A DNA stretch of 64,000 nucleotides from Isoetes taiwanensis (taxonomy: Eukaryota; Streptophyta; Lycopodiopsida; Isoetales; Isoetaceae): assembly GCA_021234155.1 (NCBI GenBank), contig JAJEKV010000113.1, positions 124,001-188,000 on the forward strand, given 5' to 3'. Position 1 is the first letter of the stretch, and each line of letters begins with the position of its first letter. Made by a program: the position numbers and the translations under genes. Below are positions 11,592 through 54,400 of this stretch, one piece after another. Below the pieces are notes generated by a model. That model saw nothing but the letters and a program-made list of their open reading frames with translations, did not search any database and was not told where the DNA came from.

Positions 11592-14296
11592 TAATGAAGA
11601 TCACATGTGCCATCTTTCGTGCTGTTCACAGCTCATTATCCTTAACATCATATATTAGGCATCCCTCCCTAATAACTTTGAGGCACTCCAGATCATGAGC
11701 AAAAGGATAGTGCATGCAGATGTGACTCACCAAGGACAAACGATGACAATAGTGAAGGACCTCTCTGGCTTGTCAATCCTATACGGTGGTAAAGAAGTCG
11801 GGCCAGAGTCCTTCCGTTCATGCCCATATCTCCTCTCCCACCCCTGGCCATCCAACACAAAGAGTGATATATTTTTAAGGCCGTAAGTTGATTCTCGCAA
11901 GAGACCTTTGTACCCAATGGAGACCGAATATCGACAGCCGCCGTTTCTCCAAGAATCTTCTTCACAAGGGCCACTTTTCTTCTCAACTCACCAAGACCTT
12001 AGGGGTAGAGTCTCCTTATGTTTTGTATTTTTAGCCTTCCAATTTTTTAGGAAGTCCTTTGACCAGAATAAAACTTCTTGATGTCATCATTACGACCTTG
12101 TATTTGTCCAAAGAATCCAATTTCGTGATAATGCCACATCCCCCGATAGCCTTTGTAACTCAGGCTCCTCCCAAACCGACTTCATTGTAACGTACATCCT
12201 TTACATGGTCGCAAAGACTCAACGGCGGACATCCTATCCTTGGTGAAAGCACCCTTCTTGTATAAGACTTCCTTCTTTAAGCACCGGTCTAAAACCCAAA
12301 TGGTCTCGCCGTCTAGCCCCCGAAGTCTTTCTCATCATCTGTCACATTCAAGTCAAATATGCTTACATCAACAGAGGGCACCCTACCCATAGTGTCCGGC
12401 AGCCTTCCCTTGTGCATAAGCGCCCTGCATTCATTCCACTTGAGCCATACCGCCTCCTTACAAAACACAATCTTATACGAGTCTTGGTCCTGACCTTTGG
12501 ATGAGCTTTTCGTAAGGATCTCGCAATGTCATCACCACCTTTTTCTTTGATTTTCTTGCGGTCTTTTTTCTTCTCCTCTCAGATAATTGTTCGCGACGAG
12601 TCCGGGCTCCAGCAGCTTTGAATGCTCAGACTTTGACCCCGCCTGCCCGGTGGGCAATGGGCAGCCATATTCCACCCAATCGTTGACGGGCGGGCAGCTT
12701 GTTCAACGTATGGACCGCAATAGTACGCACATTGAATCAAGATTATCATAGAATAGAAACACGCGCGATTTGAATAGAATTGATCAAGAGAAAAATCACG
12801 CGGGCGTGAAATGAATAAAGTTACTAATGCAATCCACGCCAGGCATGCTTTAAAATCAAATCAATTCACGCCAGCGTGTTTTCAAATCATCGAATTCCGC
12901 CAGGGTTTTTCGATCAATTGGTTGACTTGAAAACACGCCGGGCGTGAATTCGATTGATTTGAAAACACCGGGCGTGAATTGGTTTGATTTGAAAACACGC
13001 CTGGCGTGAATACAATTTATGAAACCAGGTAGATTTGAAAACACCGGCATGAATTCATTGATTTGAAAACACGGCGGAATATTAAAATGCATTGGAATAG
13101 ATGCGCTTAGTTACCTTTTGTATAGAAATGTCTTCCCATTTCATTCAAAGTTGCGCTTAATCTCGACCAAATCTGCGGTGAAGTATTGGCATCCAAGATC
13201 TGACACCTCCTATACGATAGTGATTGTAGAACGCTGCGTTTTGGCCTGTTTGTTACGCGCCGATGAGGGCCTTCCGTGCCTCAACACTTTGCCCGTCGAT
13301 GACGGCAATTTAATATTTTCATTTAACATTAACTCACGGAAGTTCGCCCACACAAAGGGCTTGTTCGAGATCATATCCCAAGGTAACACATCCACGGGCA
13401 TAGGCATTTGACTGGATTACTAATCATGCTCAACAATCTCCATGGCATGTGCCGGATCATATCTTACGCTAACATAAATGGAGCTTGGTGAACGGATGAG
13501 GGACTTCACATGGATCGCAAAAGTTTCCTTAAGACCCAATGGATAATGGTCGAGTATTTATTCAAATTGTTCATTCATCGCCTCTAGCCACTCATACGTC
13601 TTTCATTCTCAAAAACGAAGCCTCCATGCCTTCGACAAACCTGCGGGTTGAACATCCTTCCCTAGATCTAGGACCCTCTTAGAAGCTTTCAAGTCGACTA
13701 ATTCCCAGCTTGCCGCAAATAGTGACTTGGTGTCGGTTTAGTGAACATGCCTCTACCATACCGTAACCCTTTGGCAAATAGATATTGGCGTGAATCGCTA
13801 CATTGGTTGGCCAACCATACTTAAAACATGTCTCACCGCTCACATCTGTCTTCATGAACGTATCCTTGTATCTTGAGGCTCTCACGGAGTAAGTCCGGGC
13901 GGATCTTTCTTACGCTTCGTGTAATATCCAAGAGCAATTTGCGGTTGGTGTCATCCTCTTCCTCACAAGAGATTAGGATCCCTTTGTTTGGCCATCTTGT
14001 TCCTTCCTTTTCCTCGAGAAGAGAGTTAAGTCGAGCTTGCCATTTGTCTTGGCAAGGTCAACGTACTCACTCGACACCCTCGCCCATTTCCTCTTCGTAG
14101 GCGGTGGTCGGGTTGCTATAAGAATCGGCCCTTCATCATCTAAGGTGAGATCATATGGTATGCAGATCCGGTCGCCCCTTTGCTTTTTGGCGGGATTAGA
14201 ACCCGAATTATTAGGGGTTTTCTTCCTCTTGAGCAGCGCAAAAAGAAGATGAGCACTTTTAGAGTACTTTTCAGAACAAGAGATCACGCCATGCAT
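11592..14296 (-). pseudogene. Giant-element gene (v), arm A copy, main exons (unknown function)
   Basis: Minus-strand islands run from KRKKTPNNSGSNPAKK (about 14220) through YDLTLDDEGPILIAT, YKDTFMKTDVSGETCFKYGW (13750-13850), FVWANFRELMLNENIKLPS (13300-13400) to GGRGDMGMN and GESHLHAL (11700-11850). The same islands occur in the same order in arm B. The N-terminus has Lys-rich clusters that look like nuclear localisation signals. The gene is cut at 11591 by LINE A and broken by several frameshifts. I do not recognise the family. The G-rich GRGGRGDMG segment could suggest a nucleotide- or SAM-binding fold, but that is speculation. Confidence 0.55.
12793..13075. repeat. Array of CACGCC-GGCGTG palindromes in a gene (v) intron, arm A
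   Basis: About nine imperfect copies of a ~30 bp unit lie here, each built of a palindrome such as ACACGCCTGGCGTGAA and an A/T spacer such as TTGATTTGAAA. A splice donor-like AAAAG/GTAACT (minus strand) precedes the array near 13112, so it appears intronic. Arm B has a matching array at 52592-52855 with other copy sequences. The units are not identical and spacers are conserved rather than unique, so this is not a CRISPR. Confidence 0.7.
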
Positions 14297-14654
14297 TTAA
14301 ACCTAAATTAGTACAAATCACGCCATGTTGGTAGCTCCTATTATTGACCATGCTATGTGAATTTGAAACTAAATTATTTTGCATCCACATTTTAAGCTAC
14401 ATACCCTTCATGAATCCATATTTCACACTATTTATCCTCATTGAACATTGCTATCTCCAACCTGTCTAACACCGCTATATTCTATATATAAAACGTAGCA
14501 AAATTATGTTCTCTCGATGTTAATACTTAAAATTCATGCAAAGCATAATAACTCAAACTCATGCAAAGCATATTAAGTGAAAGGAAATATCTCAAATTCA
14601 TGCAAGCATAATACTCTCCACACAAGCAGGTATTCTCGTGGGCAAATTAAATAC

Positions 14655-14787
14655 CTTGAATAGGGTTCCTCGGTATTACGTGTATTCCGATCAACGCCCT
14701 CTGAAGCTTGAGAAGTGCCGGGTTTTAGGATTCCTCTTCCACCGCTTCCTCCCCCTCCTTTCGACCTCGATTCGTTTTAGAAGACAT
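14655..14787 (-). pseudogene. Giant-element gene (v), arm A copy, first exon
   Basis: ATG at 14787 opens a Ser/Lys/Glu-rich exon (MSSKTNRGRKEGEEAVEEES) ending at a donor CAAG/GTATTTAA at 14655. The matching exon in arm B (50534-50666) stays open to the same donor, whereas here a deletion brings in a stop after EEES. The ~360-740 bp to the next exon would be a first intron. Conservation of the donor in both arms supports a real exon. The gene's function is unknown. Confidence 0.5.
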
Positions 14788-15290
14788 CTCGAGTTAAGCC
14801 TAGTAACAGTCGGAAGATTAAAGGTCGGATCTGGATACGGTACTTTCGAGAAATAGGCGGCAAGAAATAGCTTTTTCTACAATTACGAAAAAGAGAAATT
14901 TGAATTTCAAGAAAACACAAAATGCGGTTTGAAATATTCTTGACACATACAAATAATAATGACGAAGACCCGTCCAGGTCGACTTCTTTCATTAAGTTTT
15001 TAAAACCAATCTATCCAAAAAAGTATCCCTCCAAATTTATCCCCCTAAACGTGGTTAACCTAATCTTTCTTCTAATTCGAATTTTCCCCGCCGCCAGAGT
15101 TTTCCATAACGCTTCTCAAATTTCTCAAATCAGCTTCTCAAGAATGGTTACGTAATCGGGTACTCATCTCATTCCAATAGCTTGAACATTAATTTCCAAT
15201 AGTAGGTGTCACAATAGCAATTTTCTCGCAGTGTTAATAGAAGATGAATGTTTCATGTTAACTTCTAAATCGTGAAAGGAAAGTAGGATT

Positions 15291-15480
15291 ATGCAAGATC
15301 GACTCCATCGATCCGGATCAGAACTGTCATGGAATTCGCCGAGGATAAGTATGTCCGAAGTTCTGATGATTAATCTTCATGCTATGGATGAAGCTTTACC
15401 TCGCAGACACCCCGGTGGGGGATACGGTTGGAGAAAGTGTTGGAACATTTGTTGCATGGCCAAGAAACCGCTTAAAAAAG
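15291..15480 (+). CDS. Giant-element gene (iv), arm A copy, first exon (unknown)
   Basis: The exon starts at ATG 15291 (MQDRLHRSGSELSWNSPRIS) and reaches a strong donor AAAAAAG/GTATGT at 15481. The arm B copy (50030-49842, minus) has the same start and donor; comparing the two shows an Arg/Leu-rich segment with SMSEV...LINL.MDEALPRRHP. A DNA-binding or Harbinger-like helical region is conceivable, but I find no diagnostic residue. The second exon was not located: downstream lies the 3' end of the oppositely oriented gene (iii). Confidence 0.45.
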
Positions 15481-15548
15481 GTATGTAACATGTATTACAT
15501 TGTAGAAATATAGAAGTAGATAAAATTTGTTGTATTCATTGGAAAAGA

Positions 15549-16249
15549 TTACAATTGTATATAATCCGGATAAATCGGATAAACCGGACAAAATCCCAGA
15601 CTATCTCTTGTTTCAAGCCCGACCATCGAGTAGGCTGGGCTATCAATCCCCATTTCCATTGCGGGCATAGTGAATTCTTCCCGGTAAAACCCCAAAGCAA
15701 AACACCGTGCTCTAGCTCCACCACCCCCCCTCACTGCTCCACCTCCACCTCCACCTCCTCCAGCTCCTGCTCCCCGCCTCGCGCCGCTTCCCATTGGTTG
15801 AACCTCCAATGCATCATTAGCGCCTCGCGGTAATGGTTCCATTGGTTGAGCCATCTCCATTGCATCGTATACCACCTTTGGTGGTAGTGGTTCGTGTTGG
15901 GGCATCCCGGCATAGAGGCTAACCACTAAGAAACACACTCCTCATTTTGAATCTCGAGCCGACGGATCGCGAGATTCACTCTCGATCAATGCATGTACCG
16001 TGCATTCTCGGTGATTAGATAAGAGGGCGACCTCCGATGCGACAGCAAAGGGCCCCCGTGAGCCCGATCTATCATTGCCCCAAGCTCTGCTGCCATCATC
16101 ATTACTTGATCCAAGTACTCCGGGGTTGCAAGACCGGTTGCTCCAGCCGACTGGTGCTTTCGGTTGCGGTTCAACCGACCGAGATTGGAGCCGGCTGGAG
16201 CTGGGCTGGGATTGCTGGCCCAAATGCGGTGATTAATGTAACTTGGCAT
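15549..16249 (-). pseudogene. Giant-element gene (iii), arm A copy (unknown function)
   Basis: From ATG 16249 the minus strand reads MPSYINHRIWASNPSPAPAG, then YLDQVMMMAAELGAMIDRA. Frame shifts lead to MPQHEPLPPKVVYDAMEMAQ, a GAGAGGGGGGGG glycine run, and YREEFTMPAMEMG near the end. Arm B (49128-49690) keeps the same start, QVMMM segment, glycine/arginine run and tail. The ORF lies ~880 bp downstream of a TATA promoter (17121-17205), with a hairpin in the leader. I do not recognise the protein; low-complexity Gly/Arg could mean RNA binding. Confidence 0.45.
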
Positions 16250-16413
16250 CTATCAATAGGAAGTGAGCGAATTATCGGTATTCACGCTGGCGTGTTATAT
16301 TTATTTATTTATAAACTTAGAAAACTAAGAGACACGTGTTTAGCGTAAAAAAGTTGAAAGTAGGGATACAATTGTTTGCACGCCGCAAACCGCTATATAG
16401 AGAAAAACTATAC

Positions 16414-16549
16414 GCCATTCGGCAGTGCATTCGGATAGATAGAGGAGAAAAAGAGCCGGATAGATAATTAAATAAATAAAGGCCTTTAATTATTTACGTA
16501 TCTATCCGCACGGCTTTTTTCTCCCTCTCATCGAGTGCACGCCGAAATG
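16414..16549. repeat. Hairpin-forming inverted repeat in the leader of gene (iii), arm A
   Basis: About 65 bp on each side of GGCC (16481-16484) are imperfect reverse complements. CATTCGGCAGTGCA on the left pairs with TGCACGCCGAAATG on the right, and GGATAGATA, GAGGAGAAAAA and AGCCG blocks also pair. Arm B has the matching hairpin at 48797-48960, where sequences have changed but pairing is kept. It may be a foldback MITE captured in the element or a structured 5' leader. Confidence 0.7.
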
Positions 16550-16567
16550 TATTCATGTTGAAGGCTA

Positions 16568-16602
16568 AGGTTAGCATAAAACACGCTTAGCGTGTTTCAA
16601 AT
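16568..16602. repeat. Short perfect palindrome AAACACGCTTAGCGTGTTT
   Basis: A 19 bp perfect palindrome of the CACGC...GCGTG family lies upstream of the hairpin. The arm B equivalent near 48744-48768 is GAAACACGC-7 nt-GCGTGTTTC, with the half-sites kept and the spacer enlarged. Retention of half-sites fits a protein-binding site. Confidence 0.45.
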
Positions 16603-17120
16603 ATTATCTTTCAGATTTTTCTATTGCTTTCTACTACACTTATTCATAATAGAAACTTGCATGCAATAGCATGATTAATTCAGGAAGAGAAACTCAAGAA
16701 TTTACTGAAACAAAGAAGCGGATGAAGTTTATAAAAACTATTCTGTTTTCATAAACATCATATGCTTCCTCCGCTCGAGCAAATGCAAAAGCTTGTCTTC
16801 TTGGATTAAACCTGCCATTGAGATGCAACTTAAAACTAAATGAAAACTAACCTTGAGTCCTGAGGCTGGAAGGATTCGAAGAACGGAGGACTATGCTTGT
16901 CGTTTTAATTCCGAGGCTTTTCGATTCGCAGACCTTAGTCCTCTGCTACAGATGCTACGTAACCAAAAAGGCTGAGTCTTTAGTAAGTTAGAATTGTCGA
17001 AACCAAACATCTAACATTCTTGAATATAAATCGCTCACCAAGATTTCGTGGAGGGCGGATCCAAACACGCAAAGGTTAACCGCAAATCGTATGAAGGAAG
17101 GAAGAAAATGTAGGAACTTT

Positions 17121-17205
17121 GAGAGCGTAAAATGGATTTATATAGGCATAATTAGAAATAAGTTAGCGTGAATAATTGATTGCTTGAATTAACACGCCGG
17201 CGCGG
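17121..17205 (-). promoter_or_regulatory. Shared TATA promoter module for gene (iii), arm A
   Basis: On the minus strand the order is GCGTGTTAATTCAAGCAATC, AATTATTCACGCTAAC, a TATA box TATATAAAT (17136-17144), then ACGCTCTCAA about 10 bp beyond it. The same module precedes the acidic gene (ii) at 18318-18400, and both recur in arm B. In plants the TATA box lies ~30 bp upstream of the start, so transcription would begin around 17105-17115 and run left through the hairpin into the 16249 ORF. Confidence 0.6.
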
Positions 17206-17819
17206 TCTGTCTTCCCCGCATTACGACATGTATATGGTATATATGGAGAATATTGCATTTCATGCAATAAATTCCATTTATTGCATTCGAAAAAAATAGA
17301 ATTTAGAAATTTTATATAGGCTAACTTAAAAATGATTTTTAAAGGCAAAGTTATCAAGGCTAAAAAATGACTTGTAAGGTTGGGGAATTGTTTTAGGTCG
17401 TATAGGAAAATTTCCTATGGTTACTGTGATGCATCAGAGATTTCTAATGTGGTTGATTTATAGTGTTCCCGAGACTTTGTTGAGACAAAGTTTGCAGATA
17501 CAAAATTTTAGAGAGACAAAATTTGCAGAGACAAAATTTTAGAGAAAACAGCTTGGAGCCAAAATAATTGGAGAATACAGTTTGATTTTATTCAAAAAAT
17601 TTTATGTACAGAAAAACTGTTTGAAGAAAACTGTTTGAAGACAAAGTTTATGAAGAAAACTGTTTGATTTCATTAAAAACAGTTGTATGTACAGATGCCC
17701 GAAGGCTTGGAAGCAGATTGTGCCCTGGGCTTTTCACACAATTCTGAGAAAAAATGCCCTGGGGAGTGTCCCAAACTTCAGAAGAATGGAAACAAAAAAT
17801 GGGCCGCCCGGGATCTGCA

Positions 17820-18288
17820 TCACTCTTCTTCCACGCCTGCAACAAAGAAGAAAGAAAGGTGTTAGAAAAGAAAGAGAGGTGCAAAAACAAAAAAAAAAAA
17901 AAGAAATCACATGCAAACCTGGTTCATCTCTCAACCACTCCAAAAACTGGTCGAATTGTCGACCCCCCCCCCTCCTCCTCCTCCTCCTCCTCCTCCTCCT
18001 CCTCGAATTCATTCTGCTTTGAGGTCAAGCCAACCCCGGCGCAGAAGTCATGTGCTCTTGGGAGGACATCTCCTCCTCTTCCTCCTCTTCCTCCTCTTCC
18101 TCCTCTTGAATCAAAGGAATCGGAGAGCTCAACTCCTCCTCTTCCATTTAATCAGAATCATCCTCCCCAATCGAATCGAGGAGAATTGGGCAAGAAAATC
18201 TATGGGGGAGAGGTTCTTCAACCCGACGTCTCTTTGACGAGACCTCCTGTTCTTCATGAAGTTCGAAAGGCGAGGCTGAACGCTTCAT
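17820..18288 (-). pseudogene. Giant-element gene (ii), small acidic protein with one intron, arm A
   Basis: ATG 18288 opens MKRSASPFELHEEQEVSSKR, with a basic KRRR cluster, followed by Glu-rich stretches encoded by GAG/GAA repeats (18065-18115 and 17971-18002) and a conserved tail RQFDQFLEWLRDEPG. An 82 bp intron (17837-17918, GTTTGC...TTGTTGCAG) separates the last codons GVEEE and stop (17820-17822). An in-frame TAA after SIGEDDSD and one frame change break this copy. The 3' side (17470-17690) has AGAGACAAAATTT repeats and an AATAAA signal. A small nuclear acidic protein is likely; the role is unknown. Confidence 0.5.
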
Positions 18289-18317
18289 GGCGTAAAAAAA
18301 ATTGGGATTTAATGGTC

Positions 18318-18400
18318 TTGAGAGCGTGAACCGGATTTATATAGGGTTAATTAGCTCTTAAGCGTGAATAATTTATTGCCTCAAATAACACGCCAGCGTC
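18318..18400 (-). promoter_or_regulatory. Shared TATA promoter module for acidic gene (ii), arm A
   Basis: The minus strand holds GGCGTGTTATTTGAGGCAAT, AATTATTCACGCTTAAGA, TATATAAAT (18335-18343), then TTCACGCTCTCAAGACC. The ATG of gene (ii) lies at 18288, about 45 bp after the TATA box, giving a short leader. The half-sites CACGC/GCGTG flank the box on both sides, as in the module at 17121-17205. Confidence 0.65.
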
Positions 18401-18869
18401 TGATAAATTCCCCGCCAGCCTATATTATCTAGGTATATTATTATGGATAATAAATTCTCACGTCTATTAGTTATATGTCTTTTTTAGAATCATATATCCA
18501 AATTTTCGATAATTAAAATTTGGATATATTTATATAAATGTCATTTCCTTTGTTGTTGCCATGAAAATTCTTGTTTTAAATGATTTCGTTTACGCCATTG
18601 TTATTATTATATTAAACCTATTTCCAAGGAATTTCTTGCTTTTAAAAAATTTGATTTACCTCTACATATTCCATAAATGTAATTTTTTTTTTTCTTATGG
18701 TGTAATAATTTTTCTTACTCATTGACTAAAAGGGTGCAATTTGCCTAGGTCAATGGTGCCTCTCAACTCAAGATGGTGTGCAACATATTGAAAAGAGCAA
18801 TATCAATGAAAAACCAACTCCTAGCAAGAATGTTGAAGAAAAACAATTAGTCCTCTATAGTAGGGTGCA

Positions 18870-21651
18870 ATGGAGGAACAAGAAGGTGAGAATCATGCAC
18901 AAGTGCAACAAAAGGAAATAGTAGGCCAAGGAGTCATTGTGCTAGCATGGATCACGGTCAAGCCGTTAATGATGAAAGGCTAGGGGAAGACAATATTGGT
19001 ATTGCAATTTCGATGTTGGAAGACAACCGGAAAGGTAAAGGTTTGGGTGACAAGGAATGTTTTGGTTGTGTCAAGCAATTGGAGGTTCCTTGCATCATGG
19101 CATAGCCTATAAGTAGTGTTCAATTTGTGGAGGATTATATTTTTCCGTGAGCACGAGGTTGTTGGGGACAATGATTGTCTTGATATTGATCCATTGGCGG
19201 TTGGAACTCTAAACCTAGGCAAAGGGGAGAAGTATCGGTTGCCGGACATTATCCTAGCAAAAGAGCCAAGTTGATTAGTGACACCAAACGTGAGACAATG
19301 GTGAAGGTTAGGGGCTCGGATTGTTGTTGGAGTGATTGTATGCAATTCTTCACAATAGAACAATTGGTGGAAGCAAGAGCCACTTTTCAAGAGTACACTT
19401 GTTGATGAGGGAGGACCTACATGTACACAATCTTGAGCATGCACTTCAAGATGAAAGAAACCCAAACAGAAAAAGATACCCTTGCTAGGCAAATGGATAT
19501 GTGCAAAAGCATGGCGAGTATCCATGCAATTCCAACTTCTTCATGGCATAATTGGCAAAAAAACAAAAGTGAGGGGAAATGGGATTGCTTTACATGGAAA
19601 TAATGGTTTGTTGAGACCAACAGCTAGGACCTTGGCTGCCGGGAGATATTTGAAAAATATATTGATTTCAATGCAAGTCTATGCCACACAAAAGCGAAAG
19701 GGATGAAAAGGGAAGAGCGGTTGTTGAAAAAGGTTGCCATCACATTGTACTCAAAAAGAGTATTTTGGAAGAAGTGAATTCCCTACTTGAGAATTGGGAA
19801 TTCTTCCAATATCCCAACCTAGCTTTAGTAGGTTATGGAAGAAGCATTTCAATCATGTCACCATAGCAACTTCAAACAACTTTGCAAAGTGCAATTTATG
19901 TGCTAAGTTGAAGGAGACTCTTGATAAGACTGTGCAACCTAGTCAAAGGGCTAGGATAAGGGGGAGCATATGAAGGACCATATGACCCGACCAACTATCA
20001 TGTAGATCATGTTATTGGATGTGGAGGACTTTATCTGCATTGGAACCCAATAACTATTTATGTATTATACATGACAAGATGGACCAACAAAGACTTTGTC
20101 TTCCACAATTCAAGTACATACCAAAGTCATGTGGAAGATCATACCCTTCTGAGATCTCAATGGCCGGGGCAATCTTGCATGGGCGAGAATCAAACCTACT
20201 ATGGCCATTTTAGTTTGGAGTTGTGGAGTGATGGTCCAGATTTTCATATTGGGAGTATCATGAGGTGTTTGAGAAACTATGAAAATAGATACAATGGTCA
20301 CCTCGGGACCTTCTGACTAGCCGGGCACTACATAGAGCATTGTTAGATGGAAACCCTAACAATATTGAAAAGTTCAGCAAGGCAAGGTTTAGGAAGCATG
20401 GGTCTAATGAACATGTTGGAGCTTCAACTTCATGTGCTAAACCTCAAGATCTACCCAAAAGGTTTCTCTTGCAACTTGATAATTGTGCTGGCCAAAATAA
20501 GAACAGGTGGATATTTTCTTTCCTATCCTACTTAACAGCTGTGGGGATATTTGAAAGAGTTAATTTAGGGTTTCTTATGCCCCAGCATACCCATGAGGAT
20601 GTGGATGCATTATTTGGCAAATATAGTTGTATACTTGAGCGACAAAACAAAGACCAACTTTCCTAGGCTAATGGAAATCTTGCATGAATGCACTACTCCA
20701 AACCCTATAGCTTCTCTCTCATAGAAGAAGTGCCCGATTGGAAGAGCTTTGTGGATGGTTATACATTGGATCTTGAAGGTCATTCCAGGCCTATGCAGTT
20801 CACTTTTTGGGTGAGAGATGGGATTCCAATCTTCCAATGGAAGATGAGACCTTCAGAGGATGAGTGGAGAGGAGGGGAGGAAATATGGCGTAGAGATGAG
20901 AATGGCAAGCCTATGATACCTCTAGGTCAACCAAAAGCTTTAAAACCCACTTGAAGAAGTGAAGCAATTGGGATTGACTAAGGAAGGAATCCAAGACTAT
21001 ATAAAGCATTGGCAAACCAATCCGGATGACACCAACCGTGCCTTGGTGGCTTCTTTGGAAGAAGGTGATTAACCTGTTGGGGGAGATAGACACATCCTCA
21101 GATGAATTGAAAGAAGGGTGGTTGCCTAAAACTAGGTGGAAGACCTTAGCGGTCTTGAGGATTTTGATGACACTGTAAGTAGCATTCATAAGCAATATGC
21201 TCCTCCTCCTTGACAAACACTATGTTGGTCCTAAGAACAATAGGCCAAAGTTTCTAGGCATGGATGCTTATGAACCTTCCACTCGACTTGGAATGCCACC
21301 AATTTGTGGTAGTAAAGCCATCGATTTAGATACATATCCGGTGTGGTTGGGGTTCACTATCTCCGATATTTGCAAAGAAGAAGGTAATATTAACTTCAAC
21401 CATGTGAGGTGGAATGGTGGTGTCCAAAGCATCGGTTGACCAACGTGTCGGATAAAGAAAGGTACTTTCGATTGTTGGACAAAGAAATGGAGGAGAAAAT
21501 CCAAAGTGATCCTGATCTTTGGCTAGACTATGAAAGTGTTTTGTACTCATGGACTCCAAACACTATTCCAGCTAGAAATGCGAGAATTACAATACCTCAG
21601 GATGTCAGGAAGAAGGCTATGATATCATTGGGGGTGCTTGAAGAAAGTTGA
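18870..21651 (+). pseudogene. Giant-element gene (i), DUF7869 / RNase H-like protein, arm A copy
   Basis: ATG 18870 (MEEQEGENHAQVQQKEIVGQ) to TGA 21651, ~2.8 kb without obvious introns. Order: acidic N-terminus; KVRGSDCCWSDCMQFFTIEQ; MHFKMKETQ...IHAIPTSSWHNW; a possible zinc-binding pair CNLC...CRSCYW, seen best in arm B; YLCIIHDKMDQ; and the DUF7869-type core RFLLQLDNCAGQNKNRW ... QHTHEDVDALFG (20455-20625). The acidic Asp in LDNC and the HTHEDVD block look like an RNase H-type catalytic arrangement, so a transposase or nuclease role is plausible. Several frameshifts break it. Arm B at 43574-46326 is nearly identical. Confidence 0.7.
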
Positions 21652-21850
21652 ATAACTATGTAAATTTTTGTTATCACGTTTTTATGATATGGTGCTATAT
21701 TGTGAAATATTGACTATTTTGTAAATAACATGATATTACGTTTTCATAATTTTGAGGTGAAATGTGTGAATTTGAATATGCTACTAAAAACATGCAATAT
21801 GAAATTTGTCCCAAAATTAAGACATAAACCCAATTTAATTGAATGATGGT
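21652..21850. other. Terminal ~200 bp of the giant element, arm A inner end
   Basis: This A/T-rich stretch follows the DUF7869 stop codon and matches arm B 43377-43573. Homology ends after CCCAATTTAATTGAATGATGGTT here and CCCAATTTAATTAAATGATGGTT in arm B (reverse complement). That common end point is the best candidate for one terminus of the element. No target-site duplication can be tested, because LINE B abuts the arm B end and the opposite terminus lies outside the window. Confidence 0.5.
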
Positions 21851-22455
21851 TGCAACTACTACCTCGAAAGAAGAGAAGGCAGAGGAGAAGAAGAACGGAG
21901 GGTGAAACTTCAAAAATCAATCTCAAGATAAACCAAGGCACAGACTTGTCTAATTTGGATCAGATTTTGCACGCGTTGGATGAGAAAAGCTATGAGGAAA
22001 GGATGCAGGAGACGAAAAGGCTACTGGAGTCCACTAAAAAAGGTATTGAAGCCTTAGAATCTACTTTTCAAAAGCTTCAGGATCTTAATAATTTTCTTCA
22101 TCGCGCACTGCCCATGGTTATAGGGGGAGCTAGTTTCGAGTATATGGGCTCTGACAATTTTGAGAAAGAGGAGATTCAAGAAGGTGGAACCTAGGAGCAC
22201 AATAATGCCTTCAAGGAATTAAAAATATGCCATGCAACTGAGTTCACACATGAGCTACAGCGGGAGTTGCTTGAATCTCAAATTCCCAGCAATTCAGAAT
22301 TTGTCTCAATAACCCAAGATGTACAGAAAATCGCTCAGGCCATGGACATTGATGTGCCAGATGTGACCGACTATTCGGAGATGGACACTTCGCAGGCGAT
22401 AGGAATTGGGAGAGAGCATGTACTGCGGATAGCCAAAGAACTTGGTGTGACATAA
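21844..22455 (+). pseudogene. Unknown coiled-coil ORF just beyond arm A
   Basis: One frame is open from the arm A boundary to TGA 22455 except for a single TAG at 22192-22194. The product has a basic start, then LDQILHALDEKSYEERMQE, which with its continuation looks like an amphipathic coiled coil, and an acidic C-terminus (SEMDTSQAIGIGREHVLRIA). I do not recognise a family. The start is unclear: the first ATG codons at the boundary open another frame that stops early. It could be a host exon into which the giant element inserted. Confidence 0.35.
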
Positions 22456-26110: not shown

Positions 26111-26189
26111 ATTTAAATAGATTACTATTATGATGGCAAGATTTAACATTTATTCGGGCATGGGGCCAAAAAAGACACACCTTTTCGAT

Positions 26190-40062: not shown

Positions 40063-40099
40063 CTAAAACTTTTCCAAACCATTTTGCAAAAATAGACAT

Positions 40100-40654: not shown

Positions 40655-40669
40655 ATGACTCACCATTAT

Positions 40670-43369: not shown

Positions 43370-43573
43370 TCTAAACCATCATTTAATTAAATTGGGATTA
43401 TGTCTTAATTTTGGGACAAATTTCATATTGCACGTTTTTAGTAGCATATTCAAATTCACACATTTCACCTCAAAATTATGAAAACGTAATATCATGTTAT
43501 TTACAAAATAGTCAATATTTCACAATATAGCACCATATCATAAAAACGTGATAACAAAAATTTACATAGTTAT

Positions 43574-46326
43574 TCAACTTTCTTCAAGCACCCCCAATGA
43601 TATCATAGCCTTCTTCCTGACATCCTGAGGTATTGTAATTCTTGCATTTCTAGCTGGAATAGTGTTTGGAGTCTATGAGTACAAAACACTTTCATAGTCT
43701 AGCCAAAGATCGATCACTTTCGGATTTCTCCTCCATCTCTTTGTCCAACAATCTAAGTACCTTTCTTTATCCGACACGTTGGTCAACCGGATGCACCGGA
43801 CACCACCATTCCACCCACACATGGTTGAAGTTAATATTACCTTCTTCTTTGCAAATATCGAGATAGTGAACCCCAACCACACCGATATGTATCTAAATCT
43901 GCGGCTTTACTACCACAAATTGGTGGCATTCCAAGTCGATGGAAGGTTCATAAGCATCCATGCCTAGAAACTTTGGCCTATTGTTCTTAGGACCAACATA
44001 GTGTTTGTCGGGGGAGGAGGAGCATATTGCTTTGCGAATGCTACTTACAAGGTCATCAACATCCTCAAGACTAAGGGGTCTTCCACCTAGTTTTAGGCAA
44101 CCACCCTTCTTTCAATTCATCCGAGGATGTGTCTATCTCCCCAACAAAGTTAATCACCTTCTTCCAAGTAAGCAACCAAGGCACTGGTTGGTGTCATCTG
44201 GATTGGTTTGCCAATGCTTTATATAGTCCTGGATTCCTTCCTTAGTCAATCCCAATTGCTTCACTTCTTTAGTAGGTTTTAGAGCTTTTGGTTGACCTGG
44301 AGGTATCATAGGCTTGCCATTCTCATCTCTACGCCATATTTCCTCCTCTCCTCTCCACTCCTCCTCTGAAGGTCTCATCTTCCATTGGAAGATTGGAATC
44401 CCATCTCTCACCCAAAAAGTGAACTGCAGAGGCCTGGAATGACCTTCAAGATCCAATGTATAACCATCCACAAAGCTCTTCCAATCGGGCACTTCTTCTA
44501 TGAGAGAAGCTATAGGGTTTGGAGTAGTGCATTCATGCAAGATTTCCATTAGCCTAGGAAAGTTGGTCACTGTCTGCGCTTCAATATACAACTATATTTG
44601 CCAAATAATGCATCCACATCCTCATGGGTATGCCCGGCATAAGAAACCCTAAATTAACTCTTTCAAATATCCCCACAAATTAAGTAGGATAGGAAAGAAA
44701 ACATCCACTGTTCTTATTTTGGCCAAAGACAATTATCAAGTTGCAAGAGAAACCTTTTGGGTAGACCTTGAGGTTTAGCACGAAAGTTGAAGCTCCAACA
44801 TGTTCATTAGACCCATGCTTCCTAAACCTTGCCTTGTGAACTTTTCAATATTGTTAGGGTTTGCATCTAACAATGCTCTATGTAGTGCCCGGCTAGTCAG
44901 AGAGTCCCCGGAGGTGACCATTGTATCCATTTTCATAGTTTCTCAAACACCTCATGATACTCCCAATATGAAAATCTGGACCATCACTCCACAACTCCAA
45001 ACTAAAATGGCCATAGTAGGTTTGATTATGCCCATGCAAGATTGCCCCCCACCATTGAGATCAGAAAGGGTATGATCTTCCACATGACTTTGGTATGTAC
45101 TTGAATTGTGGAAGACAAGTCTTTTGTCTGGTCCATCTTGTCATGTATAATACATAAATAGTTATTGGGTTCCAATGCGGATAAAGTCCTCCACATCCAA
45201 TAACATGATCTACATGATAGTTGGTCACTCATATGGTCCTTCATATGCTCCCTTATCCTAGCCCTTTGACTAGGTTGCACAGTCTTATCAAGAGTCTCCT
45301 TCAACTTAACACATAAATTGCACTTTGCAAAGTTGTTTGAAGTTGCTATGGTGACATGATTGAAATGATTGAAAAAGCTAGGTTGGGATATTGGAAGAAT
45401 TCCCAATTCTCGAAGTAGGGAATTCACTTCTTCCAAAATACTCTTTTGAGTACAATGTGATGGCAACCTTTTCTCAACAACTGTTCTTCCCTTTTCATCC
45501 CTTCTACTTTTGTGTGGCATAGACTGCGCATTGAAATCAATATATTTTTCAAATATCTCCTGGCAGCCAAGGTCCTAGCTTGTTGGTGTCAACAAACCAT
45601 TATTTCCATGTAAAGCAATCCCCGTTCCCCCTCTGCCTATTTTTTTTTGCCAATTATGCCATGAAGAAGTTGGAATTGCATGGATAATCTGCCATGCTTT
45701 TGCACATATCCATTTGCCTAACAAAGGGTATCTTTTTGTTTGGGTTTCTTTCATCCTGAAGTGCATGCTCAAGATTGTGTACATGTAGGTCCTCCCTCTC
45801 ATCAACAAAGTACTCTTGAAAAGTGGCTCATGCTTCCATTGTTCTATTGTAAAGAATTGCATACAAGCACTCCAACAACAATTTGAGCCCCTAACCTTCA
45901 CCATTGTCTCACGCTTGGTGTCACTAATCAACTTGGCTCTTTTGCTAGGATAATGTCTGCAACCGATACTTCTCCCCTTTTGCCTAGGTTTAGAGTTCCA
46001 ACCGCCAATGGATCAATATCAAGACAATCATTGTCCCCAACAACCTCGGGCTCGGAAAAATATAATCCTCCACAAATTGAACACTACTTATAGGCCATGC
46101 CATGTTGCAAGGAACCTCCAATTGCTTGACACAACCAAAACATTCCTTGTCACCCAAACCTTTACCTTTCCAGTTGTCTTCCAACATCGAAATTGCAATA
46201 CCAATATTGTCTTCCCCTAGCCTTTCATCATTAACAACTTGACCGGGATCTGCTAGCACAATGACTCCTTGGCCTACTATTTCCTTGTTGCACTTGTGCA
46301 TGATTCTCACCTTCTTGTTCCTCCAT
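43574..46326 (-). pseudogene. Giant-element gene (i), DUF7869 / RNase H-like protein, arm B copy
   Basis: Minus strand from ATG 46326 to TGA 43574. Open blocks: QWRNKKVRIMHKCNKEIVGQ frame (46331-45990), KVRGSNCCWSACMQFFTIEQ (45931-45575), then 45520-45026 with CNLCVKLKE, CRSCYWMWRTL and YLCIIHDKMDQ, and 44591-44154 with a WKSFVDGYTL segment. The LDNC...HTHEDVD core (about 44620-44790) is present but frame-broken. It complements arm A, where the core is open but the Cys region is not: together they show one original ~900-codon gene. The Cys pairs suggest zinc binding before a nuclease-like core. Confidence 0.7.
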
Positions 46327-46792
46327 TGCACCCTACTATAGAGGACTAATTGTTTTCTTCAACATTCTTGCTAGGAGTTGGTTTTTCATTGATATTGCTC
46401 TTTTCAATATGTTGCACACCATCTTGAGTTGGAGAGGCACCATTGACCTGTGAAAATTGCACCCTTTTTAGTCAATGAGTAGGAAAAATTATTACACCAT
46501 AAGATAAAAAAAGTGCGACATTTATGGAATATGTAGAGGTAAATCAAATTTTTTAAAAGCAAGAAATTCCTTGGAAATAGGTTTAATATAATAATAACAA
46601 TGGGTAAACGAAATCATTTAAAACAAGAATTTTCGGCAACAACAAGGAAATGACATTTATATAAATATATCCTAATTTTAATTGTCGAAAATTTGGATAT
46701 ATGATTATGAAAAAAGACATATAGGCGATAGGCGTGAGAATTTATTATCCATAATAATATACCCTAGATGATATAGGCGGCGGAATTTAAAT

Positions 46793-46875
46793 GCGCTGGC
46801 GTGTTATTTGAGGCAATCAATTATTCACGCTAATTTCTAATTAACCCTATATAAAATCGGTTCATGCTCTCAAGA
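46793..46875 (+). promoter_or_regulatory. Shared TATA promoter module for acidic gene (ii), arm B
   Basis: GCGCTGGCGTGTTATTTGAG, CAATCAATTATTCACGC, TATATAAAA (46848-46856), then TTCATGCTCTCAAGACC. The gene (ii) ATG follows at 46909. Mirrors 18318-18400 in arm A. Confidence 0.65.
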
Positions 46876-46908
46876 CCTCCATTACTGTCCAAATTTTTTT
46901 ATGCCCAC

Positions 46909-47522
46909 ATGAAGTTGTTCAGCCCCTCGACCTTCATGAAGAACCGGAGGTCTCTTCAAAGAGACTCGGTTGAAGAACACTTCAATTCCCCTCCCCCCCA
47001 TTGATTTTTTCCCATAGATTCCTTTTTGGAGGAAGGAGGAGTTGGTTCCAATTCTCCTGCTTGAGTTGGCTTGACTCGGAAATGGAGGGATGGAAGGGGA
47101 GGAGGAGGAGGAGGAGGAGGAGGAGGAGGAGGAGGGAGGAGGAGGAGGAGGAGGAGGAGGAGGAGGAGGAGGAGGAGGAGGAGGAGGAGGAGGAGGAGGA
47201 GGAGGAGGAGGAGGAGGAGAGGAGGGGAGGAGGAGGAGGAGGAGGAGGAGGAGGAGGAGGAGGAGGAGGAGGAGGAGGGAGGGAGGAGGAGGAGGAGGAG
47301 GAGGAGGAGGAGGAGGAGGAGGAGGAGGAGGAGGAGGGAGGAGGAGGAGGAGGAGGCGGAGGAGGAGGAGGAAGGCGATGGGAGGAGGTGGGTTGACAAT
47401 TCACCAATTTTGGAGTGGTTGAGAGATGAACCGGTTGCATGTTTGTTTTTTTTTTTTTTTTGCACTTTTTTCTTTTCTAACACCTTTCTTTCTTCTTTGT
47501 TGCAGGCGTGGAAGAAGAGTGA
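46909..47522 (+). pseudogene. Giant-element gene (ii), acidic protein with expanded GGA tract, arm B
   Basis: ATG 46909 (MKLFSPSTFMKNRRSLQRDS, frame-shifted relative to arm A, whose reading is MKRSASPFELHEEQEV). A long (GGA)n tract at 47099-47375 replaces the shorter GAG/GAA runs of arm A, followed by the conserved FLEWLRDEP-type block (FGVVERDEP frame here). A 72 bp intron (47434-47505, GTTGCATG...TTTGTTGCAG) is followed by the final exon GCGTGGAAGAAGAGTGA, identical to arm A. Downstream AGAGACAAAATTT-type repeats (about 47640-47880) also match. The Glu-coding repeat appears prone to expansion. Confidence 0.5.
47099..47375. repeat. (GGA)n microsatellite, ~275 bp
   Basis: Nearly uninterrupted GGA repeats with a few GGGA slips, inside gene (ii). 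Six-frame translation gives only poly-Glu, poly-Gly, poly-Arg or complementary low-complexity runs. Such purine tracts can form triplex DNA and are hard to assemble, so the length is uncertain. Confidence 0.9.
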
Positions 47523-48097
47523 TCTTGCATCCCCGGCGGCCCATTTTTGTTTGGTTTCTTACACGTGTTTTGGACACGCCTCATTTTTTTTTTCATAGAA
47601 TTGTGTGAAAAACCTTCAAACCGCTTCCAAGCCTTCGCATCTGTATATAACTGTTTTTAATGAAATCAAAACAGTTTTCTTCATAAACTTTGTCTTCAAA
47701 ACGTTTTTCTTCAAACAGTTTTTTCAGTACATAAATTTTTTGAATAAAATCAAACTCAGATTCTCCAATTATTTTGGCTCCAAGTCTGTTTTTCTCTAAA
47801 ATTTTGTCTCTGCAAATTTTGTCTCTCTAAACTTTTGTCTCTCTGCAAATTTTGTCACAACAAAGTCTCGGAAACACTATAAATCAACCACATGAGAATT
47901 CTCTGATTCATCACAAGAACCATATAAAATTTTCCTATACGACCTAAAACAATTCCCCAACCTTACAAGTCATTTTTTAGTCATTTTTTTTAGCAATAAA
48001 TGGAATAAAATGCAATAAATGGAATTTAATTTATTGCATAAAATGCAATATTCTCCATATATACCATATACATGTCATGTCCGGGAAGATCAGACAT

Positions 48098-48182
48098 GCG
48101 CCGCGTGTTAATTCAAGCAATCAATTATTCACGCTAACTTATTTCTAATTATGCCTATATAAATCTATTTCACGCTCTCAAA
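48098..48182 (+). promoter_or_regulatory. Shared TATA promoter module for gene (iii), arm B
   Basis: GCGCCGCGTGTTAATTCAAG, CAATCAATTATTCACGCTAA, TATATAAAT (48156-48164), then TTTCACGCTCTCAAAG. Mirrors 17121-17205. The first large ORF (49128) is ~950 bp downstream, past the hairpin; a donor-like CTCAAG/GTTAGT lies at about 48490, so the leader may be spliced. Confidence 0.6.
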
Positions 48183-48796
48183 GTTCCTACATTTTTCTTC
48201 CTTCCTTCATACGATTTGCCGGGTTTAAACCACTTTTCTGTTTGGATCCACCCTCCTAAAATCTTGGTGAGCAGATTTATATTCAGCAATGTTAGATGTT
48301 TGGTTTCGGCAATTCCTAACTTACTAAAAGACTCCTCCTTTTGTTCAGTAGAAAGGTGTAGCGCAGGACATCGGAGGCTCAGAAATTAAAACCAAAAGCA
48401 GAGGACTAAGGTCCGCTAAAACAAAAAGCTCTAATTAAAACCAAAAAGCAAAGTCCTTCGTTCTTCAAATCCTTCCAGCCTCGAACTCAAGGTTAGTTTT
48501 CATTTAGTTTTAAGTTGCATCTCAATGGCGACTTTAATCCAAGAAGACAAACTTTGCATTTGCTCGAGGCAAAGGAAGAATGATGTTTATGAAAACCGAA
48601 TAGTTTTTTATAAACTTCATTTTTTTTTTTTTTCGAGTAAATTCTTGAGTTCTCTTCCTCGAATTAATCATGCTATTGCATGCAAGTTTCTATTATGAAT
48701 AAGTGTAGTAGAAAGTATTAGAAAAATCTGAAGATAGTATTTGAAACACGCTAAATTTGCGTGTTTCATGCTAACCTTAGCCTTCAACATGAATAC

Positions 48797-48960
48797 TGCG
48801 GTTCATTGCATTAAATGAGAGAGAAAAAAAAAACAGATGCGAGATAGATAAGTAAATAGATAAAAGGCCGGGCAATCGTTATTAAATAATTGCACGGCCT
48901 TTATCTATTTATCTATTTCTATTTGTACAGGTTTTTTCCCTCTCTGGTGAATGCACGCCG
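48797..48960. repeat. Hairpin-forming inverted repeat, arm B
   Basis: GTTCATTGCATTAAATGAGA...GATAAAAGGCCGGGCAAT pairs with ATTGCACGGCCTTTATCTAT...TCTCTGGTGAATGCAC, ~70 bp per arm. Its arm A partner is 16414-16549. The two hairpins differ in sequence while both keep pairing. Confidence 0.7.
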
Positions 48961-49127
48961 TCCCTTTTTCCATATATAGTTTACACTTATTTGGCGTGCA
49001 AACAATTTTATCCCTAGTTTCAACACCTTACCCAAACGGGCGTGTCTCTTAGTTTCTAAGTTTATAAATAAATAAATATAACCACGCCGGGCGTGAATAC
49101 TAATCTTCAGCTCACTTCCTATTGATA

Positions 49128-49690
49128 GATGCCAAGTTACATTAATCACCGGTTGGTGGCGAAGATGCATTGGAATTACATTTGGGCCCTTAAGTGATCA
49201 CCTGCCCGGCTCGGTTTAGGCTCCAATCTCGGTCGGTTGAGCTATGGTAGAGCACCCGATCCATTTGGAGCATCGTCTTGCAACCCTTGGATTACTTGGA
49301 TCAAGTAATGATGATGCGTGGGCAAATGATAGATCAATGAGCTCTGGGGTCCCTTGCAATGTCGCCGAGGGCTGGCCCTCTTATCTAATCCTTGAGAATC
49401 ACGGTACATGCATTGATGAAGTGAATCTCGCATCCGTCATTTCGAGATTCAAAATAGAGGCTCGTTTCTTAGTGGTTAGCCTCTATGGCGGATGCCCCAA
49501 CAAACCCCTACCACGGCGGTATCTGATGCAATGGAGATGGCTCAACCAATGGAACCACTACAGGAGGAGGAGGCGGGGAGGTGGAGGTGGAGCGGCGGGA
49601 GGTGGAGCTAGAGCACAGTGTTTTTCTTTGGGGTTTTACGGAAGAATTCACTATGCCTTGCAATGGAAATGGGAGTATCGATAGCCCAGC
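49128..49690 (+). pseudogene. Giant-element gene (iii), arm B copy (unknown function)
   Basis: ATG 49128 reads MPSYINHRLVA, as in arm A, then loses frame. Blocks from the arm A protein follow: YLDQVMMMRG (49280-49310), DEVNLASVISRFKIEARF, LVVSLYGGCPN, the MEMAQPMEP-type segment and an Arg/Gly run, then a YALQWKWEYR frame near the end. A shared 3' flank (TTTGTCCGGTTTATCCGGTT, 49727) closes the unit. Arm differences are mostly small indels. No family recognised. Confidence 0.45.
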
Positions 49691-49841
49691 TACTCGATGA
49701 CCCAGGCTTGAAACAGCGAATCAGGGATTTTGTCCGGTTTATCCGGTTTATCCGATTATATACAATTGTAAACTTTTTCCAATGAATACAACAAATTTTG
49801 TCTACTTCTATATTTCTACAATGTAGTACATATTTACATAC

Positions 49842-50030
49842 CTTTTTAAAAGCGGTTTCTTGGCCATGCAACAAATGTTCCTACACTTTCTCCAACAGTA
49901 TCCCCACGGGGTGTCTGCGAGGTAAAGCTTCATCCATAAGCGCAAGATTAATCAACGTAACTTCGGACATACTTATCCGGCGGAATTCCATGAGCGGTTT
50001 GCGATCGGATCGATGGAGTCGATCTTGCAT
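49842..50030 (-). CDS. Giant-element gene (iv), arm B copy, first exon
   Basis: From ATG 50030 the minus strand reads MQDRLHRSDRKPLMEFRRIS, then MSEVTLINLALMDEALPRRH and PVGILLEKV, then one TAG where arm A has TGG, then EHLLHGQETAFKK up to the donor AAAAG/GTATGT (49842/49841). The frame is otherwise uninterrupted and is the best view of this exon. It looks helical and basic; a transposase or DNA-binding N-terminal region is conceivable but unproven. The downstream exon was not found. Confidence 0.45.
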
Positions 50031-50533
50031 AATCCTACTTTCCTTTTCCGATTTGTAGTTAACATGAAACATTCATCTTGACACATCGCAGACAATTGCC
50101 TATTCAGGCACCTTTATTGGAAATTATTGTACAAGCTATAGGAATGAGATGCTTAATAGAATTCTGTAGCCATTCTTGAGAAGCCGATTCGAGTTCTTGA
50201 AATCACAGGCGCTATGGAAACGCAGGCGGTCGGGAAAAATTCGAGTTACAAGAAAGCTTAGGTTAATTACATTTTGGCGGGATAAATTTGGCGGGATACT
50301 TTTTGGGTAGATTGGTTTTTAAAAACTTAATGAAAGAAGTCGGCGGACGGGTCTTCGTCATTATTATTTGTATGTGTCAAGAATATTTCGAAACTACATT
50401 TTTGTTTTCTTGAAATTCAAATTTCTCTCGTCGCGGGTAGAAAACGCTATTTCTTGTGCAGAAAAAGCTATTTCTTCGAAAGCTGGAAGGCGTATCCAAA
50501 ACCTTCCGACTGCTTTACTAAGCGACTCGGAGA

Positions 50534-50666
50534 TATCTTCTAAAACAATCGAGGTCGAGGGGACGGGGCAGAGGGAAGCGGTGGAAGAGGAATCTCAAAA
50601 CCCGGCACTTCTCAAGTTTGAGGGCGTTGATCGGACAATACCAGAATACGTAGAACCCTATTCAAG
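50534..50666 (+). CDS. Giant-element gene (v), arm B copy, first exon
   Basis: The exon matches arm A 14787-14655. The start codon reads ATA instead of ATG here, but the remainder is open: SSKTIEVEGTGQREAVEEES, QNPALLKFEG, then a VDRTIPEYVEPYS segment up to donor CAAG/GTATTTAA. The open frame through the exon in this copy shows that the arm A stop is secondary. The long first intron (~745 bp) follows. Confidence 0.5.
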
Positions 50667-51413
50667 GTATTTAATTTGCCACGAGAATACACAATCGTGT
50701 GGAAGTATTATGCTTGTATGAATTTGAGATATTTCCTTGCCTTCAGTTGAGTTTGAGTTATTATGCTTTACATGAATTTTAAGTATTACCATCAGTTAAT
50801 GCTCTGATTGTCCGTTTTGTAGAACATAATTTTGCTCTGTTTTATAGAATATGCAGTGTTAGACAGTTGGAGATAGCAATGTTCAATGAGGTTAAATAGT
50901 GTGAAATATGGATTCATAAAGGGTATGTAGGGTGAAAGCATGCTACGATTGTACCACTTTGGAACCCTCAAAAGTACCTACAATTACTTTTAAAAGCTGT
51001 ACTTTCTGTTTTTTCTTCCCATTAAAATCAATCCAAAATTTTTGAATTGAAGGTCAATAACATGTCAATCTATAATAGTAGATGATAAAAATACTATTAG
51101 AGACTAAAATGAATGAATCAACTCTCAAACTTATTGTTTATTGAGACATTTATGCAAGTTCCTAGTACCAGTCTTTGGGTACTTTTTTGGGTAGTTTTGC
51201 ACTCCTAAAAAGAACTTTAGATGGTACACCCCTAGCATGCTTTCACCACAGTGCTTAAAATGTGGATGCAAACTAATTTAGTTTCAAATTCACGCATAGC
51301 ATGGTCAATAATAGGAGCTACCAACACGCCAAGCGTGAATTGTACTAATTTAGGTTTAAATGCACGCCGTGATCTCTTGTTCGAAAAGTACTCTAAAAAT
51401 GTTCATCTTCTTT

Positions 51414-54400
51414 TGCGGTGCCCAAGAGGAAGAAAACCACTAATAATTCGGGTTCTATTCCTGCCAAGAAAGCAAGGGTAGACGACCCAGATGCAGTACC
51501 ATATGATCTCACCTTAGATGATGAAGGGCCGATTCTTATAGCAACCACTAACCCCACGCCTGAAGAGGAAATGGGCCGAGGGTGCCGAGTGGTGCGTTGA
51601 CCTTGCCAAGACAAATGGCAAGCTCGACTTAACTCTCTTCTCGAGGAAAAAGGAAGCAGACAAGATGACCAAACAAGGGATCCTAATCTCTTGTGAGGAA
51701 GAGGATGACACCAACTGCAAATTGCTCTTGGAGATTACACATAAGCAAAAGAAAGATCTGCTCAGACTTACTCACTGTAGAGCTACTGCATACAAGGATA
51801 CGTTCATGAAGACAGATGTGAACAGTGAGACATATTTTAAGTATGGTTGGCCAACCAATGTAGCAGTTACGCCAATATCTATTTGCCAAGGGGTTACAGC
51901 TGTGCGAAGAGGCATGTTCACTAAACCCGATACCAAGTCACTATTTGCGCCAAGCTAGGGGAATTAGCCGACTTGAAAGCTTCTAGGAGGGTCCTAGATC
52001 TAGGGAAGGATGTTCAACCCGTAGTTGTCGAAGACATGGAGGCTTGTTTTTTGAGAATTAAGCGCAGGTGGCGCGCCTAGAGGCCATGAACAAGCTGAAT
52101 AAATACGCTGACCATTATCCATTGGGTCTTAAGGAAAGTTTTGCGATCCATGTGAAGTCCCTCATCCGTTCACCAAGCTCCATTTATGTTAGCGTAAGAT
52201 ATGATCCAACACATGCCATGGATATTGTTGAGCATGATTAGTAATCGAGTCAAATGCCTATGCCGGTGGATGTGTTACCTTGGGATATGATCTCGAACAA
52301 GCTCGCTTGTATGGACGAACGTCGAGGAGCTATTATTAAATGATGATATTAAATTTGTCATCATCGACGGGCAAAGATTCGTTGAGGCGAAAAAGGCCCT
52401 CATCAGGCGGTGCGTAACAAACAAAAGGCCAAACCATGTTCTACAATCACTATGCGTATAGGAGGTGTAGCCTCTCTTGGATGGCAATACTTCACCCTAC
52501 TGCAGATGGTGAGATTAGTGCAACTTTGAATGAAATGGGGAAGACATTTCTATACAAAAGGTAATTGACGCATTAGGATGTTAGCACTTTAATATTCACG
52601 CCAGCGCTCATTCAAATGGAAACCAATTCCGCCCGGTTGATTTCAAATGAAACCAAATCACGCCAGCGTGCTTTCAAATCAAACCAAATCACGCCAAAGC
52701 GTGAATGTTAAAGCACGCTTGGCGGAATTGATTTGATTTGAAAGCACGCCTCGGGCGTGATTTGGTTTTATTTGAAATCACGCTGGCGTGAATTCAACCG
52801 ATTCGGCAGCACCGAATTGCATTGGTATTTAATTCATTTCACGCCAGCGCTGCTTTGAGGTTGATCTTTTCTATTGACATCGCGCCTGTTTTTGTCTTCC
52901 CGATACTGATTCAATGCCCACGTACTTTTGGCGCCCGCCATACGCGGAGCAAGCTGCGCCCGCCTCCCAACAATGGTGGAATATGGCGTCCATTACCCAC
53001 CGGGAGAGTATGGTCAAAGTCCGAGGCTTTCAAGCTGCCGGAGTTTCTACGTTGCCGGAACAATTATATACGAGAAGAAGAAACCGCAAGAAAATCAAAG
53101 AAAAAGGTGGTGATGACATTGCGGATCCTTCAAAAGCTCATCAGCGTGCGTGTCCAGCCCAACATTTCATATAAGATTGTGTTTTGTAAGGATGCACGAT
53201 TATGGCAAAAGTGGAATGAATTCGGGGACGCTTATGCACAAGGGAAGTCGCCAGATATCTATGGGCGGGTGCCTCCTCGCTGATGTAAGCATCTTTGACT
53301 TGAATGTGACAGAGATGAGAAAGACTCAGGGGGCTAGCGGCTTTGAGACCATTTAAGTTTTAGACCAAAGGCTTAAAGAAGGAAGTCTTATACAAGAAGA
53401 GTGCTTTCACTAAGGATAGGATGTCCTTCGTTGAGTGCTGACACCATGTGAAGGATATATCGCACAATGAAGTCACCGTAGGAGCCGAAGTTACAAAGGC
53501 TATCGGGGGATGTGGCATTATCCAAATTGATTGTTTGGACAAATACAAGGTCAAGAATGATGACATCAAGAAGTTTGTATTACGGTCAAAGGACTTCCTA
53601 AAGAATTGGAAGGCTAAAAATACAAAACATAAGGAGACTCTACCCCCAAGGTGCTTGGCCGAGTTGAGAAGAAAAGTGGCCCTTGTGAAGAAGAAGATTG
53701 GAGAAGAAGACATCGCAAATATTCGGTCTCCATTGGGTACAAAGGTCTCTTGCCGGAATCAACAGTTGCCTTAAAAATATATCACTCTTTGTGTTGGACG
53801 GCAGGGGTGGAAGAGGAGATATGGGCATGAACCAGAAGGACTACAACAGCTTCTTTACCAAATGTATAGGATTGACAACTGAGAGGTCCTTCACTATTGT
53901 CATCGTTTGTCCTTTAGGTGAGTCACATCTGCATGCACTATCCTCACGCTCATGATCCGGAGTGCGTCAAAGTTATTAGGGAAGGATGCCTAATATATGA
54001 TGTTAAAGATAATGAGCTTCTGAATGAACGGAAAGATGACACATGTGATCTTTATTATGATAGCCATCTTTGTCGGGACGAGGAATATGATATTGCTAAG
54101 GCCAAGGGTGACAATAGCGATTACATGGAAATGTTTCTTCTAGATGATCCACACTTAAGAACTATATTCTATCATACGGATCGGATCGGTCCGGTCGAGC
54201 AGATGAGTCGAGGAAGAGGATGAGGATCGGGACCCCCTCCTAAGTGGGGAAATCAAGTCACGAGCTACAAACTAAGGAGAAGGGCCCCTTAAATAAAATG
54301 GATTTCCCATGGCTGCTTACCTCGCCGAGGCATTTGCTCCAATTGATACAACCCGCTTGGAGCTTCATGTTGGAGGTTATATTGCCCCGAGAGGCTCTTA

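Follow-up and report, generated by a model that had tools for sequence, protein, structure and literature searches.

Maverick/Polinton and Starship are large multi-gene DNA elements of eukaryotes. The locus described here, found in a stretch of 64,000 nucleotides of Isoetes taiwanensis DNA (contig JAJEKV010000113.1, positions 124,001 to 188,000 of the forward strand; hereafter the window), consists of two inverted arms, A and B, each with a gene for a protein that carries the DUF7869 domain. It resembles those elements in presenting a unit of more than 10 kb with several frames and regulatory repeats, and differs from them in that the arm pieces searched, which cover part of the broken frames, gave no Pfam match to an ATPase, to a polymerase, retroviral-like integrase or capsid protein (as in Maverick/Polinton, whose DNA polymerase is protein-primed), or to a helicase or tyrosine recombinase (as in Helitron, Crypton and Starship). 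The domain is that of the DUF7869 proteins (PF25273), a family to which Pfam assigns no function and which is named nowhere in the available parts of the papers found by literature search. We give about even chances to the reading that the arms are inverted copies, both interrupted, of a mobile plant DNA element that is unclassified and carries a transposase-like DUF7869 gene.

Using self-BLASTN of the window, we found that the arms form three collinear inverted matches, far above chance: A 18213-21851 with B 46978-43374 (93.2% over 3675 columns), A 14397-18004 with B 50930-47347 (78.5% over 3827 columns) and A 11592-14397 with B 54057-51253 (82.1% over 2903 columns). Arm A, delimited by self-BLASTN and MAFFT windows, covers 11592..21851 on the plus strand and arm B covers 43374..54057 on the minus strand, its final open frame in the list of open reading frames (ORFs) extending to 54807; a gap of 21.5 kb separates them. 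Each of sixteen peptide patterns is present exactly one time in either arm, and their order agrees between the arms while the orientation is reversed, which demonstrates collinearity and is not an independent test of it, the patterns having been chosen from the arms themselves. The initial annotation, which named a self-dotplot among its checks, had described two mirror-image collinear arms facing each other across this distance, and self-BLASTN bears it out; its figure of at least 12 kb of element on the arm B side is not borne out, since homology to arm A stops at 54057 and no open frame of that side reaches beyond 54807, so that about 11.4 kb is arguable.

The DUF7869 assignment, also made in that annotation, is confirmed by a Pfam profile match of arm A 20289-20663 to PF25273 with 83.7 bits, against a curated cut-off of 26; the corresponding piece of arm B scores 25.5 bits, slightly under the cut-off. 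Profile search finds the domain in all four of the relatives recovered (P0001 to P0004), and P0004 is the representative of 647 sequences; relatives P0002 to P0004, one of them standing for so many sequences, fit a mobile gene. Three acidic motifs were located in both arms by peptide pattern search, IIHDKMD (D1; A 20064..20084, plus; B 45131-45151, minus), LLQLDN (D2; A 20466..20483, plus; B 44732-44749, minus) and HTHEDVDALF (A 20586..20615, plus; B 44603-44632, minus), and together they give a D-D-(39)-E pattern. Spliced introns had been proposed as well, and these find no support in the DUF7869 coding region at A 19.5-21.63 kb, the part that can be aligned to relatives: it is collinear with both P0002 and P0001, and no gap in it is large enough for an intron.

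The retroviral integrases and other DD(E/D) recombinases of the RNase-H fold are likened to the DUF7869 protein by the D-D-(39)-E pattern, by an RNase-H-like order of elements (seen with low confidence in a structure model of P0004), by a weak alignment to intasomes and by a small C-terminal barrel. Fold searches with the P0004 model returned weak matches to Argonautes and to integrases and intasomes, none of them at E<=0.001 with Foldseek in PDB or BFVD, and the model of P0002 has a mean pLDDT (predicted local distance difference test) of 42.6. The protein differs from these enzymes in its additional N-terminal part with a C-x2-C motif, in the long spacing between D1 and D2 (135 residues by distance in arm A, 126 in P0004) and in the lack of a sequence match to any solved structure of such an enzyme: the best sequence hit of the DUF7869 piece among solved structures has E 0.0075, to an entry with a designed-looking name, and the profile hit has E 0.15. 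Neither NCBIfam nor PHROGs matched P0001, P0002 or P0004, and three of five window pieces gave only weak rows in PHROGs (E 0.096 and above). No relatives of P0001 or P0004 were found in contigs of prokaryotic genomes, nor of P0001, P0002, P0004 or the frame-M piece (see below) in viral contigs, collections that both say little about plants, and P0004 had no tblastn match in phages; a viral origin is unsupported by the viral-contig and phage searches. From the motif pattern, the order of elements and the structural matches, an RNase-H-like enzyme is plausible, and the "putative nuclease/transposase" of the initial annotation can be kept on these terms. The probable transposase would then be the DUF7869 protein, whose D-D-E core would be RNase-H-like and whose C-terminal part would form a chromo/SH3-like barrel, and it would cut and join DNA like other DDE transposases.

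Alignment with MAFFT and counts over clean columns divide each arm into an inner and an outer module. The inner module holds the DUF7869 gene and its 3' flank in arm A (18450..21850, plus strand, left edge approximate) and the DUF7869 gene in arm B (43374..46740, minus strand, outer edge approximate), as placed by profile match and alignments. Between the arms it differs at 106 of 2968 clean columns (3.6%; 18420-21850 counted), and the outer module at 769 of 4737 (16.2%; 11592-17700 counted), a 4.5-fold difference in substitutions; positions 17701-18419, which lie between the modules and include microsatellites, were excluded from both counts. The divergence break, at about 18.45 kb, adjoins a TATA-containing block. 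The difference between modules is not accounted for by selection on the protein, because the noncoding 3' flank at A 21567-21816, which belongs to the inner module, agrees to 99% between the arms in the MAFFT alignment and mismatches in the DUF7869 gene are even across codon positions (15 of 429, 13 of 427 and 15 of 427 at the first, second and third); gene conversion or module exchange would explain it. In arm B, some 91 units of (GGA)n form a microsatellite at 47098-47372, its counterpart in arm A being a short CCT run at 17971-18004.

These divergences bear on the main rival explanation, which we regard as rather unlikely: an inverted segmental duplication of a locus with a DUF7869 gene and repeats, followed by gene conversion of the inner module and by LINE-like insertions (long interspersed nuclear element). 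The divergence break fits a conversion tract across the inner module, the arms are collinear along their whole length and a single pair is seen within the window; on the other hand, DUF7869 relatives occur elsewhere, with the large cluster represented by P0004, and the arm pieces that were searched (part of the frames) contained nothing recognisable as a host gene, whereas the spacer between the arms has some. If such a duplication took place, the locus would be a rearrangement of the ordinary kind, with a gene in it that looks mobile.

Read against P0001 over 457 codons, the DUF7869 frame has 12 frameshifts and no stops in arm A, and 17 frameshifts and one stop in arm B. Insertions and deletions (indels) between the arms number 51 in 3378 aligned columns of the inner module (0.0151) and 137 in 5831 of the outer (0.0235), a 1.6-fold rise compared with the 4.5-fold rise in substitutions, and 49 of the 51 inner indels are of 1-2 bp, with one a multiple of three. 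Such short inner indels and so modest a rise fit unpolished long-read error in repeated DNA, but the one-base indels are only mildly enriched in base runs: 11 of the 38 fall within runs at least three bases long, which hold about 20% of all bases. The frameshifts may partly be sequencing error, and the noise is unequal across the window, since the LINE-like element beside arm B retains open frames of 257, 224 and 205 codons. The best reading is that the copies of the element are either damaged or badly read. Indels of this kind, suggesting sequencing error in the arms, could also be expected if a single locus had been placed twice in opposite orientations during assembly, an artefact that we consider very improbable, the substitution divergence of the outer modules and the differing flanks being incompatible with two readings of one locus.

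The outer module contains two broken frames (L and M), repeated TATA-containing blocks and CACGCC palindromes. The hexamer CACGCC or its complement GGCGTG occurs 36 times in the 20.9 kb of the arms and 13 times in the remaining 43.1 kb, against a mean of 4.8 and a maximum of 11 in 200 mononucleotide shuffles of the arms; 35 of the occurrences are in the outer modules and one in the inner modules, and they are found in tandem arrays of palindromes as well as within or next to the TATA-containing blocks. Allowing up to two mismatches, the window has 10 palindromes (mean 0.55, maximum 3 in 100 dinucleotide shuffles), seven of which fall inside the arms. In arm A, units of about 30 bp with the palindrome CACGCC-N-GGCGTG are repeated in tandem over 12830..13011 (self-BLASTN and pattern search), and self-BLASTN places the corresponding array of arm B at 52596..52794. 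The TATA-containing block, of about 85 bp, has two copies per arm by self-BLASTN: the outer copy of arm A (17119..17203, minus strand) is paired with 48096..48181 (plus) in arm B, and the inner copy (18318..18398, minus), which is the one that adjoins the divergence break, with 46791..46873 (plus). Palindromic arrays and TATA-containing blocks in both arms, as initially described, are thus upheld by the shuffles and self-BLASTN; that the CACGCC palindromes act as operators is a guess.

Frame L, which has no match in Pfam, PHROGs or solved structures, lies at 13300..14296 (minus strand) in arm A and 51415..52560 (plus) in arm B, broken and with approximate edges in both; frame M lies at 11592..12720 (minus) in arm A, where it is cut at 11592 and its inner edge is approximate, and at 52880..54807 (plus) in arm B, where it is broken and its last open stretch is 54244-54807. 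These frames, drawn from the ORF list and the peptide patterns, share peptides between the arms and score better on the strand given than on the opposite one, yet negative on both. A composite of frame M compared with a protein database gave 6465 candidates, none at E<=0.001. Judged by sequence, L and M may or may not be genes. In the proposed element, the outer module would contribute regulatory palindromes, two related promoters and the accessory frames L and M, and both modules may move together. A single large element in which four or more accessory genes are joined, as first annotated, goes beyond what is shown, given that the modules differ 4.5-fold in substitution divergence and also in motif content, that the outer frames are unmatched in the searches made and that no ends, terminal inverted repeats (TIRs) or target-site duplications (TSDs) were found. 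The same boundary and the uneven distribution of CACGCC/GGCGTG would suit two separate units, an inner DUF7869 mobile unit of about 3.4 kb and a different, older outer repeat family adjoining it in both arms. This is improbable: the junction is the same in both arms, which needs either duplication after joining or site-specific insertion twice, and the two ends of the inner module are not joined by an inverted repeat (score 21, reached in 53 of 200 shuffles).

The homology of arm A ends at 11592, at the border with a minus-strand element (9215..11591) that is probably LINE-like, a class for which the evidence is weak: a coiled-coil frame, an endonuclease match of E=0.0046 that is below the cut-off, and no reverse transcriptase match in the one piece searched, 9145-9438. 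This element is seemingly cut at 9214 by an apparent Ty3/gypsy-type long terminal repeat element on the minus strand (1-9214), whose repeat 9113-9214 recurs at 1-99 by self-BLASTN. At 1029-1457 this second element matches a Tf2-1-like SH3 domain (E=3.8e-8). The homology of arm B ends at 43374, against the 5' end of another LINE-like element (38223..43373, minus strand) with a reverse transcriptase match of E=1.4e-18, an endonuclease match of E=6.7e-6, just below the cut-off, and an ATAG tail at 38223-38249. Because the outer end of arm A and the inner end of arm B abut LINE-like elements, the true ends of the unit are outside view. By low-stringency BLASTN, the inner flank of arm A has no counterpart in 30-43 kb and the outer flank of arm B none in 1-11.6 kb. 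Past 21851, arm A is followed by a helical-looking frame on the plus strand (21847-22452) with only weak Pfam rows; it may belong to the unit as its next gene, or it may be flanking DNA unrelated to it.

Several results weigh against a mobile element. No TIRs were found between the inner end and either 54.05-64 kb or the outer module, the outer end possibly being beyond the window, and no TSDs were found in an alignment that covered the junctions of the arm-B LINE-like element only; this lack of ends and TSDs also favours the segmental duplication, although it is weak evidence because neither true end is in view. Frames L and M have no relatives in Pfam, PHROGs or solved structures, substitutions in the outer frames lack codon periodicity, and the mismatches by codon position reveal no purifying selection on the DUF7869 gene between the arms. 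Should the arms nevertheless be copies of a mobile element, DUF7869, a Pfam domain of unknown function, would gain a testable activity (D-D-E DNA cleavage and joining) and plant genomes would gain an unclassified large DNA element with a shared promoter and operator-like repeats. A broader proposal, that DUF7869 stands for a superfamily, still without a name, of eukaryotic transposases marked by the D-D-(39)-E pattern and a chromo-like barrel at the C-terminus, and that in this plant it powers a large element of several genes equipped with palindromic operator arrays and a repeated promoter of its own, is tentative and somewhat unlikely.

The spacer encodes a protein kinase (Pkinase, E=1.9e-16) and a SAUR-type protein (Auxin_inducible, E=8.8e-21), and at 25900-28900 on the minus strand Rfam identifies an isolated piece of eukaryotic ribosomal DNA (rDNA; the end of 18S, 5.8S and the beginning of 25S) that departs from the conserved consensus at many positions. 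These spacer genes and the rDNA would place the locus in the nuclear genome of a land plant. An organelle origin was considered for the GC-rich 26-28.6 kb and set aside in view of the eukaryotic rRNA genes found with Rfam. A small open frame at 31244-31528 (plus strand) has a signal-peptide-like start and is cysteine-rich.

Across 54-62 kb there is a strong skew of A over T (0.31-0.46), and a direct repeat of about 145 bp (80%) joins 55878-56021 and 62812-62951; the segment 54000-62951 is perhaps a non-autonomous retroelement. At 57783-58379 there is a further direct repeat, which is about 265 bp long and has an identity of 90%.
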